Shown here piece by piece: positions 14,255-34,299 of a DNA stretch of 64,000 nt. Each line of letters starts with the position of its first letter. Positions within the stretch are counted from its first letter, which is position 1. Made by a program: the position numbers and the translations under genes. The notes below the pieces were generated by a model. That model saw only the letters and a list, made by a program, of their open reading frames with translations, had not been told where the DNA came from and did no database searches. Origin of the DNA: Candidatus Poribacteria bacterium (lineage in GTDB: Bacteria; Poribacteria; WGA-4E; WGA-3G); assembly GCA_022821965.1 (NCBI GenBank), contig JAJECN010000054.1, positions 1 to 64,000 of the forward strand. Direction: 5' to 3'.

Positions 14255-14745
14255 TCTCTCTTTGTTCCTATTTTTTAATTTCCTTGTGGTTCGGTGAGAG
14301 TCGCCTGTGGTTTTACGCTCATCTCCGTCCAATCGCTTTCCACTTCGTTTCAGGCTACGCGCTTTGGTCGGTGCCCCATAGCGATTGGCGTATGGGAAGC
14401 GCGTAGGGGACAGGTTGCTTGTAATGTTTTAAGGTTCGTATAGTGCATGCAAAATTCTGCGTTCTATCTTTTGACATAATTTTCGCAATTAGGTTGAATC
14501 GAATTTTTCGTCGTTTGTCCGGCACTAAAAAATTTCCTTTACAACACCTCTGGGGTGTGCTAAATTTCATATAAATTTTTATTTTTTTAAATGGCTATCA
14601 GCAATCAGCCGTCAGCGGAATAGTTATCAGTTGTCGGTTGTCAGTTTTCGGTAGCAAGAGACCTCCGTTAAACGAGTGCCTCTTAACCGATAACTGGTAA
14701 CTGACTGCCGCGTGCCGGAAGCCGAGAGCCAAAAAAGGAACAGAT
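14255..14745. other. Intergenic region with repeats
   Basis: No gene is supported. The region holds a copy of the ribosome-binding-site-carrying repeat (14270-14297, then TTCCACTTCGTTTCAGGCTA at about 14338). Near 14590-14700 there is a degenerate run of short units like ATCAGC/GTCAGC and TATCAGTTGTCGG, similar to 17196-17224. The oxidoreductase start signals lie at its right end. Confidence 0.5.
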
Positions 14746-18452: not shown

Positions 18453-18478
18453 ATTTTTAATTTTCCTTGCGGTTCGGT
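18453..18478 (-). repeat. Ribosome-binding-site-carrying repeat, upstream of GT4
   Basis: Read on the minus strand this is ACCGAACCGCAAGGAAAATTAAAAAT directly before the GT4 start (written here only to define the unit; core AAGGAAAATTAAAAAT). Related copies are at 14270-14297, 18605-18633, 21392, 21516 and 21640. The AAGGAAAA core can serve as a Shine-Dalgarno sequence. Confidence 0.6.
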
Positions 18479-18721: not shown

Positions 18722-19603
18722 TTAATTTTTTTGTCCGAATTTCACTGCAAATTCGATGATCGCCTTTGCAGTATCGATTCCTGTGACTGACTCCAATTCC
18801 TCAAATCCCGGCGACGGATTGACTTCCAGAACAACGGGTCCCTCGTTTGTTTCAAGTAAATCGACACCGGCTATTTCTAACTCAAGTGCTGCGGTTGCTT
18901 CTATCGCGAGACGGGTGTAGTCATCCGTTAGTGTAATCGCTTCTCCTGTCGCGCCTTTATGAATATTCGCTCGGAATTCGCCGGGCGGTGCACTTCTTTT
19001 CATCGCCGCAATCGCTTCATCTCCTACGACAAGAACACGGATGTCAATTCCATCTGCTTCGGCGATAAAAGGCTGAATCACATAGTCCTGATGGAGGTCA
19101 CACAGTGCGTCTACAGTTGAAGTGAGCGATGTAGGTGTATCTAACAACATTACGCCCCTGCCGTGTGTGCCGTAAAAGGGTTTTAAAATAAATGGGTAAT
19201 TCCCTATCTCGGCTACGGCGTTCTCTAAAGACGTGGTGGTACCGACGGTTAGGCTTGGTGGGATAGGCAATCCATGCTGCGCAAGGATGCGTAGCGAGTG
19301 AAATTTGTGCCGTGCTGCCTCGATGGGTTTTGCACGATTGATAACAGGCGTGCCGATCCATTCAAAGTGTGCTACGACCTCTTCGCCATATCGTGCTGTT
19401 GTCCGACTGAGCCGTGGCACGATGACATCAAAGTCTTCTGCTGGCTTTCCTTCATAGGTGATGCGGTTACCAAGACCACCGATATGAAGGTAAAAACCGA
19501 AGGGATCTAAAATTTCTGCGATGTGTCCTGCATGTAGGGCAGCTTCGCTGAGCCTGCGTGTGGAGTGGTTTTGGGGTCCTCGGGAGAGGATACCGATTTT
19601 CAT
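18722..19603 (-). CDS. ATP-grasp ligase, RimK-like
   Basis: An ATP-dependent carboxylate-amine ligase of 293 residues resembling RimK (which adds glutamate to ribosomal protein S6), LysX and coenzyme F420 gamma-glutamyl ligases. Visible parts are a preATP-grasp domain (MKIGILSRGPQNHSTRRL), the ATP-binding loop KPFYGTHGRGVMLL, and the metal-binding end VVLEVNPSPGFEELE. The acceptor substrate is not known; it could be a protein C-terminus or a small amino acid. ATTAAAAAT directly precedes the ATG, as in two neighbouring genes, but without a strong Shine-Dalgarno sequence. It lies between a glycosyltransferase and two genes of uncertain role on the same strand. Confidence 0.88.
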   Translation of the reverse strand: MKIGILSRGPQNHSTRRLSEAALHAGHIAEILDPFGFYLHIGGLGNRITYEGKPAEDFDVIVPRLSRTTARYGEEVVAHFEWIGTPVINRAKPIEAARHKFHSLRILAQHGLPIPPSLTVGTTTSLENAVAEIGNYPFILKPFYGTHGRGVMLLDTPTSLTSTVDALCDLHQDYVIQPFIAEADGIDIRVLVVGDEAIAAMKRSAPPGEFRANIHKGATGEAITLTDDYTRLAIEATAALELEIAGVDLLETNEGPVVLEVNPSPGFEELESVTGIDTAKAIIEFAVKFGQKN

Positions 19604-19786: not shown

Positions 19787-20320
19787 TTATCTCGGTGACG
19801 GTGAAGACCCACCGACAAGCAGCTCCAACGGCTCAGTTGATTCTCGTAGGCGTTTCAGTGCTGCTTCCCCCTGACAGCGACGTTCGTTTTGAAGTTCAGA
19901 TACACGTGTCCTGAAAAGCAGCATCGTCTCAGTAACCCCCGGTTCGGTAACAGCTCCGGCGAGTAAGCCTCGAACAATCAATTGCGCATTTTTCAGTGCG
20001 GGGTCTTTTTGGACAGAAAAGGTTGCGCATTCATTGATGAGAGAGCGATATTCGTTTAGCAAGTCGGGGCCTACAAGGGCATTGCTCTCTGTGACCAATA
20101 ACTCGGCATTCAAGACAAAGCCGAAAGTCTTATCCTTTCCATCCTCGTCAAAAATACTATAGCGATCATTGACGAACATAAAAATGTACTGGTGATCGCC
20201 TGCTAAAAAATCCTCGACGTAAAACCTTTTGCCATACCAATCTTTCGTCGGAACAATGGTCCCCTTCTCAATACACTCGTTGTAATGAGATTCGTCGGTT
20301 GTGTAATACGCGTCAACCAT
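19787..20320 (-). CDS. Hypothetical protein
   Basis: I do not recognise this 177-residue protein. It is soluble, acidic at the N-terminus (MVDAYYTTDESHYNECIEKG) and rich in aromatics in the first half (DWYGKRFYVEDFLAGDHQYI). The second half is mostly helical and ends in a short Ser/Pro tail. AGAAGG about 10 nt upstream supports the start. It follows the kinase-like/deoxyribosyltransferase-like gene by 48 nt on the same strand, so the two may work together. No membrane segment or signal peptide is seen. Confidence 0.7.
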   Translation of the reverse strand: MVDAYYTTDESHYNECIEKGTIVPTKDWYGKRFYVEDFLAGDHQYIFMFVNDRYSIFDEDGKDKTFGFVLNAELLVTESNALVGPDLLNEYRSLINECATFSVQKDPALKNAQLIVRGLLAGAVTEPGVTETMLLFRTRVSELQNERRCQGEAALKRLRESTEPLELLVGGSSPSPR

Positions 20321-20368: not shown

Positions 20369-21391
20369 TCAACTTTCATCCACTTTATACGTGGTCGTTA
20401 GAAAATCTGCCAACTCCTCAAAGGTATCAAAAATCCGGTCACATAGGTTCTCAAAGAAGATACTTCGCGTGCCAGGGTAAACTGCATACACTGGCTTGTT
20501 ATGGCGGGAAGCGTAATTCATTTCACTGAGAACACCGGGCGATAATTTGTCCGTCGGATAGATGACAACCACAAAATCACTCTGATGGACGAACTGGTAA
20601 TCGCGTGAGATTGTGCGCGTTTGAATCTGCTCAATCACTTCTTCACCCATTTCACTCACACGCGGTGCGTCATCACTTTCATCTTTCGTGAGGGTAACGA
20701 GTTCCATGTCCTTGATTGTGAGCGGATCGAAGACGATAAATGAACGACTCAGTTTTTCGCCGATCTCGCGGATTTTCTCGATTTCTTTCGGTGTATCTCT
20801 TAAAAGCGTAATTGGATAACTAAGATAAAATTTCGGTTTCGGGGAGAAGAGGAGTTCATAGAAATTCTCAAGATCGTGTTGTCTCGCGACGGTGTAATGG
20901 GGTTTCTCTGTGAAATGTGCGAGTTGCCGCGTTAGGAACTCTTCCTCATCTAACCAAACATTGAGTGCTGCTTTTCCCATCTCTGCCCACTGTGGCGTTT
21001 TTTCCATCCGTTCTGATATATCGGTGATGTTGTCAACGACATTGATTAGGAGATCTGGTAGCAGGATTTCAATGTCCTTGAAGGAGAACCCTTCAATGAG
21101 ACTCCCGCGCCATCGAAAGCAGGCGTGTAAACCGATGATCGCGTGTTCATAGTCTTCGGCGCGGCGTGCGATTTCGTAGAACGCTGTGCGCCGTGCTAAT
21201 GACAAAACCGCTGGATCCGAATCGAGAACTTTATCTGTGAAATGGACACGAGCTTCCGCGGCGGCGCGGTGCATAACGTCGCCGACATTGAAAAAGCCGA
21301 TGTTCAGTTTTCTTTTCATGCAAAGGATTTTAAAATTCGCCATTAACTCTTTGCGACCTGAGCAGCTGATGCCAGTACAGACGATCTTCAT
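20369..21391 (-). CDS. Adenylate-kinase-like domain fused to nucleoside deoxyribosyltransferase-like domain
   Basis: The 340-residue protein has two parts. Residues 1-~170 resemble archaeal-type adenylate kinases (MKIVCTGISCSGRKEL, then FFNVGDVMHRAAAE and a PDLLINVVD segment), but the P-loop reads GISCSGRKE instead of G....GK[ST], so ATP binding may be lost or altered. Residues ~185-330 look like a nucleoside 2-deoxyribosyltransferase/Rossmann-like domain (FYLSYPITLL, SDFVVVIYPTD, SPGVLSEMNYASRHNKPVYA), with a conserved Ser and Glu. The role may be nucleotide sensing, modification or cleavage; this is inference. The start at 21391 directly follows a repeat with AAGGAAAA. The open frame upstream to 21589 is translated repeat. 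Confidence 0.75.
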   Translation of the reverse strand: MKIVCTGISCSGRKELMANFKILCMKRKLNIGFFNVGDVMHRAAAEARVHFTDKVLDSDPAVLSLARRTAFYEIARRAEDYEHAIIGLHACFRWRGSLIEGFSFKDIEILLPDLLINVVDNITDISERMEKTPQWAEMGKAALNVWLDEEEFLTRQLAHFTEKPHYTVARQHDLENFYELLFSPKPKFYLSYPITLLRDTPKEIEKIREIGEKLSRSFIVFDPLTIKDMELVTLTKDESDDAPRVSEMGEEVIEQIQTRTISRDYQFVHQSDFVVVIYPTDKLSPGVLSEMNYASRHNKPVYAVYPGTRSIFFENLCDRIFDTFEELADFLTTTYKVDES

Positions 21392-21681
21392 ATTTTTAAT
21401 TTTCCTTGCGGTTCGATGAGGCGGGTTGGAAGTTTGATGTTCCTTTCCGTAGATCCGCTTTCCACTTCGTTTCAAGCTGCGTGCCTTTCTGAAATCCGCT
21501 ATCAACTCGTGTCCGATTTTTAATTTTCCTTGCGGTTCGATGAGGTGAGTTGGAAGTTTGATGTTCCTTTCCGTAAATCCGCTTTCCACTTCGTTTCAAG
21601 CTGCGTGCCTTTCTGAAATCCGCTATCAACTCGTGTCCGATTTTTAGTTTTCCTTGCGGTTCGGTGAGGTGGATTGGGGGT
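21392..21681. repeat. Tandem repeat, period 124 bp (two full copies plus a partial)
   Basis: Units start at 21392, 21516 and 21640, exactly 124 bp apart, each with ATTTTTAATTTTCCTTGCGG. The two full units differ at only a few bases (for example GGCGGGTT versus GGTGAGTT, CGTAGATC versus CGTAAATC). The unit closest to the kinase-like gene supplies its ribosome-binding site. It is open in the minus-strand frame and so yields false N-terminal extensions. Confidence 0.85.
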
Positions 21682-29859: not shown

Positions 29860-32022
29860 CTATTCTCCGATGTGCTGTGCGACGAGTGTTAAATCCAAAA
29901 TGTTGACGATGCCGTCGCCGTTGAGGTCTGGTGAACTTTCCCCGAAACGCGAGGCGACAAAGGTCAAATCCAAGATGTTTACGATACCATCGGCGTTTAC
30001 ATCAGCAGGTTCTCGTTTATTCTGCTCAAAGTGCTCAGCGACGAACGTTAAATCCAAAGCGTTGATGACCCCATCGCCGTTGGCGTCCCATGGCGTTTGT
30101 GATGGTTGCGATGCAAGCTCCCAGAGGAGAATTGTGCCATCCCATCCGCCGCTTGCAAGCGTCCTACTATCGGGTGAAAACGTCAACTGTGTGATCTCTT
30201 TTGTATGCCCTTTGAGGATAGCCGTAGGTGATTTCCGAGGCTCATGCGTACGGAAAGTGACCGCATCCCATAAAAGGATTGTGCCATTCCAACTCCCACT
30301 CGCAAATGTCTTTCCATCTGGCGAGAATGCTAATGCACCAACCTCGCCTGTGTGTCCTCTGAGAGTAGAGAGCCGCTCTGTGGTGTCTGCATCCCATAGC
30401 TGAATCGGTCCGTAAGTTCCGCTACTTGCCAAGGTTTTACTATCAGGTGAAAACGCTAACCCAAAGACATCGTCCCTACGCCCGCCAGTTGAGTCCTGTT
30501 TTCCAAGGGTGGCGCGGTGTTTTCCTGAATCGACATCCCACAGAAGAATCGCTCTGTCCCCACCACCACTTGCCAGCGTTTTACCATCTGGTGAAAATAC
30601 CAACTCAAAAATCCAGTGTATATGCCCTTTGAGGGTGGCGCGGCGTTCTCCGGTTGTTAAATCCCATAAGAGAATGGCATCGTTTCTATCCGTGCTCGCA
30701 AGGATTTTACCGTCTGGCGAGAATGCTGTACTGAAGGAATCTTGCAACGTGAGGAGTGCTTGTGCTTCGCCAGTTGCACGCCAGAGCTGAACTGCCTCGT
30801 CATCACCTCTACTGATAAAAATTATGCCGTCCGGTAAAAACGCCGCTGCCTTAATCCAGTTTTTATATCCCGTGAAGAGGAGTTCCTGCTCTTGTGCCGT
30901 CTCCGCATTCCACAAACGAAGGACACCGTCGCTGTCTCCACTGACAAGTGTATTGCCATCTGGAGAGAAGGCAAGGGCAGCAACATACCCTGGGTGTGCA
31001 TGGAGAATAGCCTTTGGTTGGATATCAGTCGTACTTGGTGTCTGCAGGAGGGCAAGGTCCCACAACCGAACCGTGTTGTCCTCGCTTACACTTGCAAGCG
31101 TTCTACCATCCGGTGAAAACGCGAGCGAATAGATGTGCCACGTGTGTGCTGTGAGTACCGCCTGTTGTTGTCCAGTGTCTGCATCCCACAAGCGAATTGT
31201 GCCGTTTCCACTCCCACTGGCAAGGAGTGTCCCATCCGGTGAAAACGCAACGGCAGAGACACTATATGTATGTCTCGTGAGGCTATCTCGTCGTTGATTT
31301 GTGTGCGACTCCCACAACTGAATTGCATTTGCGCGACTCCCAACAGCGAGGACTGTGCCATCCGGTGAGAATGCTAAAGACCCGACCGGCGCGGTTGTAA
31401 GAATAGAACGATGTTCGCCAGTGGCGATATCCCACAACCGGACTGAACCATCCCGACTCCCACTGGCAAGGAGTGCCCCATCCGGTGAAAATGTCACAGT
31501 CCGGATTCCACCTGTGTGTCCCTCAAAGGTCGCACGATGTTGGGCAGAGGGAATATCCCACAACTGAACGATATTCTCGTAATCCGCACCACTTGCCAGT
31601 GTTCTGCCATCGGAAGAAAAGGCGAGTGTTACAATTGGGCGTTCATGCCCTTTGAATGTGGTGTGCAGCTGTCTCGTCGGAACATCCCATAAAATAAGTG
31701 TCCCATCCGCTCCGCCCCCGGCAAGTATTGTCCCATCGGGTGAATATGCACACGATTGGATGCCACGTGTGTGATCTGTGAGCAGAGCCATTTTTTTATA
31801 CGTTTGGGCATCATAAAGCCAGATGCCTATGGAACTCGCTACGGCGATTTGGGTTCCATCCGGCGAGAACTGGACATCAGTCGCGTTGCCTTTACTGAGG
31901 CGCGCATTAGCACCTTCGGGTAAACGCCACCGTGTGGAATCTTGGGCGAAACCTTTGTGTAAAAAAAAGGCAGAAATGAATAGCAGAGAAATGATAAAAA
32001 AGAGAAATCGCGTCTGTTGCAT
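29860..32022 (-). CDS. Secreted WD40 (14 repeats) protein with three dockerin-type repeats
   Basis: The 720-residue protein has a signal peptide (to about residue 26, GFAQ). It then has 14 WD40 repeats of the form HT..V..LAFSPDG.TLASGS.D.TI.LWD, enough for two seven-bladed propellers. The end carries three Ca-binding dockerin-type loops: DANGDGVINALDL, DVNADGIVNILDL and DLNGDGIVNILDL. In cellulosomes dockerins bind cohesins, but none is in this window, so it may bind elsewhere or just bind calcium. GAGGAGGT, lying inside the end of the upstream gene, is 10 nt before the ATG; the two genes are 3 nt apart. It is the last of three tandem paralogues. Confidence 0.93.
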   Translation of the reverse strand: MQQTRFLFFIISLLFISAFFLHKGFAQDSTRWRLPEGANARLSKGNATDVQFSPDGTQIAVASSIGIWLYDAQTYKKMALLTDHTRGIQSCAYSPDGTILAGGGADGTLILWDVPTRQLHTTFKGHERPIVTLAFSSDGRTLASGADYENIVQLWDIPSAQHRATFEGHTGGIRTVTFSPDGALLASGSRDGSVRLWDIATGEHRSILTTAPVGSLAFSPDGTVLAVGSRANAIQLWESHTNQRRDSLTRHTYSVSAVAFSPDGTLLASGSGNGTIRLWDADTGQQQAVLTAHTWHIYSLAFSPDGRTLASVSEDNTVRLWDLALLQTPSTTDIQPKAILHAHPGYVAALAFSPDGNTLVSGDSDGVLRLWNAETAQEQELLFTGYKNWIKAAAFLPDGIIFISRGDDEAVQLWRATGEAQALLTLQDSFSTAFSPDGKILASTDRNDAILLWDLTTGERRATLKGHIHWIFELVFSPDGKTLASGGGDRAILLWDVDSGKHRATLGKQDSTGGRRDDVFGLAFSPDSKTLASSGTYGPIQLWDADTTERLSTLRGHTGEVGALAFSPDGKTFASGSWNGTILLWDAVTFRTHEPRKSPTAILKGHTKEITQLTFSPDSRTLASGGWDGTILLWELASQPSQTPWDANGDGVINALDLTFVAEHFEQNKREPADVNADGIVNILDLTFVASRFGESSPDLNGDGIVNILDLTLVAQHIGE

Positions 32023-32025
32023 TTC

Positions 32026-34299
32026 TTACTCTACCTCCTCAGAAAGATGGCTCGCCACGGTCGTCAAATCCAAGATATTGATAACACCATCTCCATTGAC
32101 ATCAGCTAGTTTCTGTTCTAAGTAGGAAGCGACGAGCACCAAATCGAGAATGTTGACAATACCATCGCCGTTGACATCCGGAGAATCTTGCTCAAAACCA
32201 GAGGCAACGAGTGCCAAGTCCTGAACACTGACGATTCCATCTCGGTTGACATCCCACGGTGCTTGTGAGACCGGTATTAACAACAAATCCTGCTTGGAAG
32301 GAATGAACTCCCATAGGAGAACTGTGCCGTCCCAACTTCCGCTCGCGAGCGTACCACCATCAGGAGTGAACGCCAGAGCAGCGATGCCGCGTGTATGTCC
32401 TTCAAGAGCACTCTGGTAGCGACCAGTGGCAACATCCCATAAGATAACTGTATTGTCATCACCACCACTCGCAAGCGTCTTACCGTCCGGTGAAAACGCG
32501 AGTGAATAGACATCACCAGTGTGCCCGCCCCAGAGGGTGAATAGACGGCTACCCGTACTTGGCTCCCACAAGCGAATCCCGTAAGAGCCGGAACTGGCGA
32601 GGGTTTTTCCATCTGGCGAGAACGTTACGATTGTCCCCGCCCGCCATGAACGATTATAGATCTCCTCAAGCTTGGTTTTCAATTCTCCGGTTTCTGGATC
32701 CCACAACCAAACCACGCCGTCCCGACTCCCACTGGCGAGGGTTCTCCCGTCTGGGGAAAACGCCATAGAATAGATGGCTTCTGGGGACTCTTCAAAGACT
32801 GTTTGTTGTTGCCCGGTGTGTGCATCCCATAATCGAATCGGATCTTTGCTACCTCCGCTGGCGAGAATTTTTCCATCTGGGGAAAACGCCAATGTGAGAA
32901 CTCTGCCCGTATGTCCTGTGAGAACTGTTTGAAGTTGGAAATCAAAAACGAATGGCGATTGCTGGGTATCCGTGTTCCACAATCGAATTGTTTTGTCGTT
33001 ACTCCCGCTGGCAAGGATTTTTCCATTTGGAGAGAATGCTAACGCATTAACACCTTCTGTATGTCCTTCCAGCGTTTTCCGTAATTGTGTGGTATCTGGA
33101 TTCCATAACAGAATCGGAGCTTCCCAATCCCCATTAGCGAGAATACGACTGTAACTCCCACTGGCAAGAATGCGACCGTTCGGAGAGAGTACCATAGTAT
33201 GGATTCCATCTGTGTGTCCTTTTAGCGTGACTTCTTGGAGCTGTCCGCCGCTTGCGTTCCACAATCGAATTGTCCCGTCACGACTTGCACTGGTAAAGGT
33301 TGTACTATCCGGAGAAAATGCAACATCAGTGATTTCTTGCGAATGTGCACTTAGCCTCTTGAGGTGCTGTCCGGTATTCGCGTCCCACAGGTGAATTACA
33401 CCACGCCGACTGCCACTGACGAGTGTTTTTCCATCCAGAGAAAGTGCCACCGCCGTGAACCAATCCGAAGGTCCCATAAAAGTTGATATCTGACTCCCAG
33501 TATTTGCATTCCACAAGCGAATCGTGCTGTCCCAGCTTGCACTAACGAGCCTTTCGCCATCTGGCGAAAACGCAACTGTTTCAATTTCAGACGTATGTCC
33601 TTCAAGCGTCAAAAGGTGTTGACTGGTGGTAACATCCCACAACTGAATCAGATAATTGTTACTTGTAAGTGGTAGTTCCTGTCCTCCATTAGCGAGGATT
33701 CTGCCATCTGGTGAGAACGCGAGAGCCTTGGCTCTGCCCGTATATGCTTTTAAGCGTGCCGTGTGTTGTCCAGTTTCCACATCCCACAAGCGAATGGATC
33801 CGTGGCTACTACTGGCAAGGGTTTTTCCATCGGGTGAGAATGCGACTGTCCAGATGCCATACGTGTGCTGTGTGAGAGAAACTTTATGTTGCTGGGTTTC
33901 CACATCCCACAAACGGATCGTAGTATCCGTGCTGCCACTGGCGAGGGTTTTACTATCCGGGGAGAATGCCACGCTCAGTACCGACTGTGTATGCCCGCTG
34001 AGAAGGGCAACCTCTGCTCCAGTGCGCGCATTATAGAGCCAAACACCGATAGAACCAGCGACGGCAACAAGGTTTCCATCGGGTGAAAACTTTATATCGT
34101 TTATATCCCCTTTCCCGATACGGGCTTTCGCACCTTCAGGTAACTGCAATTGGGTGTAGTCTTGAGCATGGACGCTTGGCGAAAAGAGGAGCGCAATTAA
34201 AAGCAATGCTAAACTAAAAAATCGTAGATGGATAGTGCCGCGCAAATATACATGCGTGGAAAGTGCGCTAACTCGGAAACTTACCTGCTTTGTTTTCAT
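32026..34299 (-). CDS. Secreted WD40 (14 repeats) protein with three dockerin-type repeats
   Basis: The 757-residue paralogue of the gene at 29860. It has an N-terminal hydrophobic segment at about 25-45 (LALLLIALLFSPSVHAQ) that fits a long signal peptide, then 14 WD40 repeats. The C-terminal dockerin-type loops are DVNRDGIVSVQDL, DVNGDGIVNILDL and DVNGDGVINILDL. No strong Shine-Dalgarno sequence is seen before the ATG at 34299, and an inverted-repeat element (34305-34424) occupies its upstream region. The stop is 3 nt from the next gene, whose ribosome-binding site lies in this gene's last codons. The target of the propellers is not known. Confidence 0.92.
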   Translation of the reverse strand: MKTKQVSFRVSALSTHVYLRGTIHLRFFSLALLLIALLFSPSVHAQDYTQLQLPEGAKARIGKGDINDIKFSPDGNLVAVAGSIGVWLYNARTGAEVALLSGHTQSVLSVAFSPDSKTLASGSTDTTIRLWDVETQQHKVSLTQHTYGIWTVAFSPDGKTLASSSHGSIRLWDVETGQHTARLKAYTGRAKALAFSPDGRILANGGQELPLTSNNYLIQLWDVTTSQHLLTLEGHTSEIETVAFSPDGERLVSASWDSTIRLWNANTGSQISTFMGPSDWFTAVALSLDGKTLVSGSRRGVIHLWDANTGQHLKRLSAHSQEITDVAFSPDSTTFTSASRDGTIRLWNASGGQLQEVTLKGHTDGIHTMVLSPNGRILASGSYSRILANGDWEAPILLWNPDTTQLRKTLEGHTEGVNALAFSPNGKILASGSNDKTIRLWNTDTQQSPFVFDFQLQTVLTGHTGRVLTLAFSPDGKILASGGSKDPIRLWDAHTGQQQTVFEESPEAIYSMAFSPDGRTLASGSRDGVVWLWDPETGELKTKLEEIYNRSWRAGTIVTFSPDGKTLASSGSYGIRLWEPSTGSRLFTLWGGHTGDVYSLAFSPDGKTLASGGDDNTVILWDVATGRYQSALEGHTRGIAALAFTPDGGTLASGSWDGTVLLWEFIPSKQDLLLIPVSQAPWDVNRDGIVSVQDLALVASGFEQDSPDVNGDGIVNILDLVLVASYLEQKLADVNGDGVINILDLTTVASHLSEEVE

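Follow-up and report, generated by a model that had tools for sequence, protein, structure and literature searches.

What can a protein do that joins an adenylate-kinase-like half without the usual ATP-binding residues to a half resembling nucleoside deoxyribosyltransferases (NDT) and the nucleotide hydrolase DNPH1? The question is raised by a gene in a 64,000-nucleotide stretch of DNA (positions 1 to 64,000 of contig JAJECN010000054.1, here called the window) from a Candidatus Poribacteria bacterium, a sponge-dwelling organism. An initial annotation, made from the letters alone, had described the gene at 20369 to 21391 in similar terms, and what it had read in the sequence was confirmed as a whole. 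Its interpretation held for the domain identities, the degenerate P-loop, the idea of glycosidic cleavage, and the RimK neighbor, and was not supported for a 177-residue partner or for a role in defense. The features discussed below are as follows.

20369 to 21391, minus strand: gene of the two-domain protein, adenylate-kinase-like N-terminal half and NDT/DNPH1-like C-terminal half, 340 amino acids from ATG
20843 to 21391, minus strand: archaeal adenylate-kinase-like domain, N-terminal, residues 1 to 183, without a Walker-type ATP site
21347 to 21373, minus strand: P-loop position, residues 7 to 15, GISCSGRKE
20372 to 20842, minus strand: NDT/DNPH1-like domain, C-terminal, residues 184 to 340
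20825 to 20827, minus strand: Tyr189, at the place of DNPH1 Tyr24 and MilB Phe17 by VIA-align start offsets
20600 to 20602, minus strand: Asp264, proposed general acid/base (compare DNPH1 D80), from conservation and the aligned Asp of 7o62
20540 to 20542, minus strand: Ser284, proposed 5'-phosphate ligand (compare DNPH1 S98 and MilB S97)
20522 to 20524, minus strand: Glu290, proposed nucleophile (compare DNPH1 E104), aligned with a Glu of 7o62
18722 to 19603, minus strand: RimK-family alpha-L-glutamate ligase, the downstream neighbor (TIGR00768, E 5e-69)
19787 to 20320, minus strand: uncharacterized 177-amino-acid gene between the RimK gene and the 340-amino-acid gene

By profile and by Foldseek, the latter on a low-confidence model, the N-terminal half has the fold of the archaeal adenylate kinase AdkA, which bears out the kinase type first assigned to it. 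Pfam AAA_17 matched residues 6 to 131 (E 1.2e-6, 29.3 bits against a cut-off of 27), the family profile found the archaeal adenylate kinase 6pjw in the PDB (E 1.3e-7), and the whole-protein model (mean pLDDT 51.8), whose fold-search matches came through this half, had archaeal adenylate kinases at the top (E about 1e-6, TMt 0.6 to 0.7). The NCBIfam archaeal adenylate kinase model gave E 2.3e-4 and 20.8 bits, below its equivalog cut-off of 155 bits. The alignments behind the structure models were built without the copies from the four other phylum-level groups described below.

The P-loop lies at the expected place, lacking GK[ST] as had been noted, and the same holds throughout the family. Among 83 distinct copies (left from 158 hits once those identical over the last 300 residues were merged, and in part from near-identical genomes), none had GK[ST] and the Ser/Thr place was never filled by either residue, while the Lys place held Arg in 73 and Lys in 6. 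The Walker-B Asp, part of the DTH stretch of archaeal kinases, was absent from all 83 (Gly in 70, Ser in 11, and Thr in 2). Neither element expected of a Mg-ATP site, this Asp or a Ser/Thr behind the P-loop Lys place, is present in any copy. Other residues of this half were invariant over the 83 copies (G7, S9, D57, R67, H89, F92, and W94). Homologues with normal kinase activity, the outcome that the initial annotation had named as telling against it, were not seen, as far as the GK[ST] motif can indicate. The missing Lys alone is no proof of a dead kinase, since methanococcal archaeal adenylate kinases of known structure also lack it (GVPGVGGTT and GVPGVGSTT in the profile alignments) and are active enzymes; the joint loss of the Ser/Thr and the Asp is the stronger sign.

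For the C-terminal half, PF05014 (Nuc_deoxyrib_tr) reached E 2.7e-5 and 24.7 bits, under its gathering cut-off of 28.8, and matched 15 of 20 diverse family members at E up to 1 (best 5.6e-7). Modeled alone (pLDDT 70.1), this half retrieved the 2'-deoxyribosyltransferase 7o62 (E 3.7e-7) and DNPH1 (E 1.6e-5) in the fold search. VIA-align matched the model to 7o62 (Z 16.9, 128 residues aligned, rmsd 3.6), to DNPH1 (Z up to 14.6; 128 residues aligned and rmsd 2.8 for 9i57), and to MilB (Z up to 13.2), so that its predicted fold is the Rossmannoid one of NDT. Structure prediction and fold search for both halves, the check initially proposed, led in this way to adenylate kinases for one and to 7o62 and DNPH1 for the other.

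The Ser and Glu first recognized in this half are Ser284 and Glu290. In the 82 copies that reach the C-terminal half, Y189, D264, and S284 were kept in all and E290 in 81, the exception being the second copy of genome G074, which has Lys; the remaining row, cut off at a contig end, does not include this half. Conservation of the GK[ST]-less P-loop, the Ser, and the Glu to this extent goes beyond chance. The family carries, to judge by its residues, the catalytic Tyr/Phe, Asp, and Glu of the NDT/DNPH1 superfamily, and, in terms of residue presence only, the Ser that precedes the catalytic Glu by six residues and marks the DNPH1/MilB subgroup, with the same spacing as S98 to E104 of DNPH1. The start offsets of VIA-align (model 3 to DNPH1 18 and to MilB 11) set Y189 on Y24 of DNPH1 and F17 of MilB, assuming a gap-free stretch before Y189. 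We read D264 as the probable counterpart of DNPH1 D80 from its conservation and the 7o62 alignment; it stands 26 residues from E290, compared with 24 in DNPH1. In the HMMER alignment with 7o62, Asp264 and Glu290 pair with Asp and Glu and Ser284 faces Asp. The place of DNPH1 R30, located in the sequence with the VIA-align offset, is Thr. As described in the part of PMC10603095 consulted, Y24, D80, and E104 are the triad of DNPH1, with D80 as general acid/base and E104 as nucleophile, and S98 binds phosphate, a phosphate-binding Ser occupies that place in both DNPH1 and MilB, and the Tyr/Phe difference (Y24 in DNPH1, F17 in MilB) goes with deoxyribose versus ribose.

Because GK[ST] and the Walker-B Asp occur in none of the 83 copies while the C-terminal residues are kept, the lapsed ATP site defines the family, and residue conservation over these copies argues that its loss is old and that the glycosidase-like site is under constraint. 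The second G074 copy (full length, L124 4527 to 5627), with its Lys at the catalytic Glu place, also sits on a longer branch and is probably a decaying gene or a pseudoenzyme.

The gene was found in 69 of the 84 genomes of the phylum, and all 43 loci from named relatives belong to Candidatus Poribacteria. The 15 genomes without it include all three of family f3, both of f6, and all six of f5. Three genomes have a second full-length copy (G006, G008, and G074) and five an extra N-terminal fragment (G058, G063, G064, G065, and G067), the match in G002 being a contig-end piece. These fragments, of some 20 to 45 residues and mostly near a full copy (for example, L027 7227 to 7346, L039 7466 to 7588, and L040 7343 to 7468), look as if left from duplications. 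Outside Poribacteria, a first, wide sample of 386 genomes turned up four carriers. Searches that started from these uncovered three other phylum-level groups, in which the gene occurs in 4 of 54, 2 of 4, and 6 of 7 genomes, and another sample of 386 led to a fourth group (2 of 6), for a total of 14 genomes in four groups. In a tree of the 83 rows, used only for group clades (its root is placed arbitrarily and the branch of the G469 row is very long), every group formed its own clade, the Poribacteria families stayed together, and the topology followed taxonomy.

Neighboring genes in two of the outside groups point to deoxynucleotides. In the G181 group, thymidine phosphorylase, hpt (hypoxanthine phosphoribosyltransferase), and deoC stand directly upstream in 6 of 6 loci (L144 is cut by the contig end) and a BtpA-family gene directly downstream, the names being taken from family models on L127 and L128 and by similarity on L141 to L144. 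Further genes of L128 match thymidine kinase and adenosine deaminase models, with similar ORFs in L141 to L143, and a metalloenzyme-family gene on L127 can be read as phosphopentomutase. In the G469 group, the gene is immediately followed, in 2 of 2 loci, by genes for a deoxynucleotide monophosphate kinase and a dCMP deaminase; G520, of a different genus from G469, has the same gene order at 59% and 81% identity. Family models run on the loci of the other two groups, G096 and G180, gave no pointer to nucleotides. A sigma-70-type factor gene and a small uncharacterized gene, the frame of which overlaps the 340-amino-acid-type gene, come directly before it in the G096 group (L126 3838 to 5045, L147 8002 to 9218, and L148 3898 to 5111), and a homospermidine-biosynthesis (deoxyhypusine-synthase-like) gene lies directly upstream in the G180 group (L125 6049 to 7140).

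In Poribacteria the usual neighbor is RimK. The ligase of the window, which matches RimK ligases of known structure at E about 1e-65, had already been noted beside the gene, and the arrangement proved to be conserved: RimK lies downstream, on the same strand and less than 5 kb away, in 57 of the 69 genomes that carry the gene, and in 26 of these the distance is no more than 250 bp. Among the other 12 it was on another contig in eight, far away in one, close but on the opposite strand in one, and missing in two. The 177-residue gene, to be surveyed as a partner according to the initial annotation, did not share this conservation. It gave tblastn matches in 18 of 74 loci, all close relatives, a floor because several of the 74 loci have only about 1.5 kb of flank, and it was seen neither in loci with 8-kb flanks nor beside more distant copies. 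The gene deoC was found in 6 of the 84 phylum genomes, 3 of them among the 69 bearing the gene (absent from 66), compared with 10 of 14 control genomes in the same search, and a deoC-fed pathway in Poribacteria was rejected on this count. Deoxyribose 5-phosphate would be left without an obvious sink there, so that the product would need another fate in these bacteria, or the substrate differs.

We lean toward a two-domain 2'-deoxynucleoside 5'-monophosphate (dNMP) N-glycosidase of the DNPH1 type, possibly able also to transfer deoxyribose 5-phosphate to another base, and hold this reading with moderate confidence. The conserved Tyr, Asp, Glu, and Ser are, at the level of sequence, the pattern of a deoxyribonucleoside 5'-monophosphate glycosidase, and the predicted fold, these four residues, and two unrelated dNMP/deoxynucleoside neighborhoods agree with one another. 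The glycosidic-bond cleavage suggested at the outset is accordingly a prediction that the DNPH1-like fold and the four residues favor. In the reaction that we infer, Ser284 would hold the 5'-phosphate and Tyr189 would lie under the sugar, favoring 2'-deoxyribose; Glu290 would attack C1' while Asp264 protonates the leaving base, and hydrolysis of the glycosyl-Glu290 ester would release deoxyribose 5-phosphate. The N-terminal half would be a descendant of an archaeal-type adenylate kinase that lost its Mg-ATP site and may now bind nucleotides, regulate, or oligomerize. The main point against a dNMP N-glycosidase is the rarity of deoC among gene-bearing Poribacteria genomes (3 of 69). RimK as the Poribacteria neighbor does not point to dNMP metabolism either, the top single fold match is a nucleoside transferase and not DNPH1, PF05014 stays below its cut-off, and the R30 place is Thr. 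The models are also modest (pLDDT 51.8 for the whole protein and 70.1 for the C-terminal half) and two outside groups have nucleotide-neutral neighbors. A wider and more tentative proposal, which we consider doubtful though worth stating, is that this protein, which occurs in at least five phylum-level groups of bacteria, is a regulated glycosidase of nucleotides, in which a former kinase serving as nucleotide sensor would switch a dNMP-destroying site on the same chain and so set or clean the deoxynucleotide pool; in Poribacteria the target would perhaps be a noncanonical or signaling nucleotide linked to RimK.

The fold match to 7o62, the highest obtained, would also suit a nucleoside 2'-deoxyribosyltransferase that swaps the bases of deoxynucleosides carrying no phosphate, the kinase-like half serving as a scaffold, as would the thymidine phosphorylase, hpt, and deoC genes adjoining the gene in one group. 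We consider this unlikely, however, given that Ser284 replaces an Asp of 7o62, that a Ser at this place binds the 5'-phosphate in DNPH1 and MilB (in the passages of PMC10603095 cited above), and that the partners in another group act on dNMPs, not on nucleosides. The enzyme may also be taken as bifunctional, the kinase half working through a non-standard P-loop and phosphorylating the product or substrate of the other half. Active methanococcal kinases without the P-loop Lys, together with the Arg (73 of 83) or Lys (6 of 83) at that place here, give this some ground, but those kinases retain the following Thr, where the present family never has Ser or Thr, and the IxDTH Asp is Gly, Ser, or Thr in every copy, which makes such an activity quite improbable.

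A function tied to RimK in Poribacteria, such as producing or clearing a nucleotide that acts as the signal for glutamylation of proteins, draws on the frequency of the downstream same-strand arrangement, which spans families with differing upstream neighbors. RimK is nevertheless present in 78 of the 84 phylum genomes, including some without the 340-amino-acid gene, its spacing ranges from 26 bp to 4 kb, and none of the loci of other groups that were read showed it beside the gene; we regard such a tie as rather improbable. An enzyme of defense or signaling with NAD or a cyclic nucleotide as its target has in its favor that the C-terminal half falls in a broad Rossmannoid group whose members, according to PMC9503650, include NADases and ADP-ribosyl cyclases. 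We give it very little credence, and the defense role contemplated in the initial annotation was not upheld. The protein resembled no known or candidate defense protein and lay in no defense neighborhood: PADLOC returned nothing for it or its two downstream neighbors, phage and plasmid (tblastn) and viral-contig collections yielded no match, and the gene, close to universal in the phylum, gives a tree in line with taxonomy. Of 10 other proteins encoded nearby, PADLOC matched only two HEAT-repeat ones, as HEAT-ARM_XIII, encoded by adjacent genes on the minus strand at 29860 to 32022 and 32026 to 34299, 8 kb and more away; these are likely generic HEAT repeats.

Animal DNPH1 and MilB are known to clean the nucleotide pool by removing bases. 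The proposed dNMP N-glycosidase shares with DNPH1/Rcl (2'-deoxynucleoside 5'-monophosphate N-hydrolase) the fold of its C-terminal half and the places of the Tyr, Asp, and Glu triad and of the phosphate-binding Ser, but differs in its extra kinase-like half, in the Thr at the Arg30 place, and in an identity of only 14 to 22% in the fold alignments. The CMP N-glycosidase MilB likewise has this fold and the phosphate-binding Ser, although it carries Phe17 (ribose), according to the same portion of PMC10603095, where the present family has Tyr. The closest fold, that of the Desulfotalea psychrophila nucleoside 2'-deoxyribosyltransferase 7o62, has the Asp and Glu in the HMMER alignment, yet puts Asp in place of the Ser and is a 151-residue chain without a kinase-like half. 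AdkA (1ki9, 6pjw, 1nks, and 6ln3) and the N-terminal half have in common profile, fold, the TG start, and the His of the DTH stretch, whereas the latter lacks GK[ST] and the Walker-B Asp, has invariants of its own such as W94, W146, and E150, and is fused to a glycosidase-like domain. Phage DmtZ and NDT-Dut fusions, as presented in the portion of PMC12884076 consulted, show an NDT-family domain that acts on dNMP and is sometimes fused to another nucleotide enzyme; there the partner is dUTPase-like, while here it has an adenylate kinase fold. A literature search, with most subscription papers outside its reach, returned no description of an adenylate-kinase-like/NDT-like fusion.

If the protein is a dNMP glycosidase, it would add a bacterial form whose partner domain is a former kinase and which is present in most Poribacteria and in four other phylum-level groups. 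The prediction of its substrate rests on a few residues and two unrelated gene neighborhoods. The family also offers a case of a small-molecule kinase without an ATP site yet under strong conservation, and its significance would lie in an old and little-known handling of nucleotides, not in defense against viruses.

The start Met of the 340-amino-acid protein is common to 18 of 18 aligned sequences. An in-frame upstream extension to 21589 crosses a tandem repeat and was not used as the start. This repeat, a 124-bp unit in 2.3 copies at 21392 to 21671, lies immediately upstream of the gene, and a 20-base piece of the unit occurs five times in the window with up to three mismatches, against 0.03 expected, including at 18456 to 18475 and 14273 to 14292. 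The unit may be a dispersed intergenic repeat found near gene starts.
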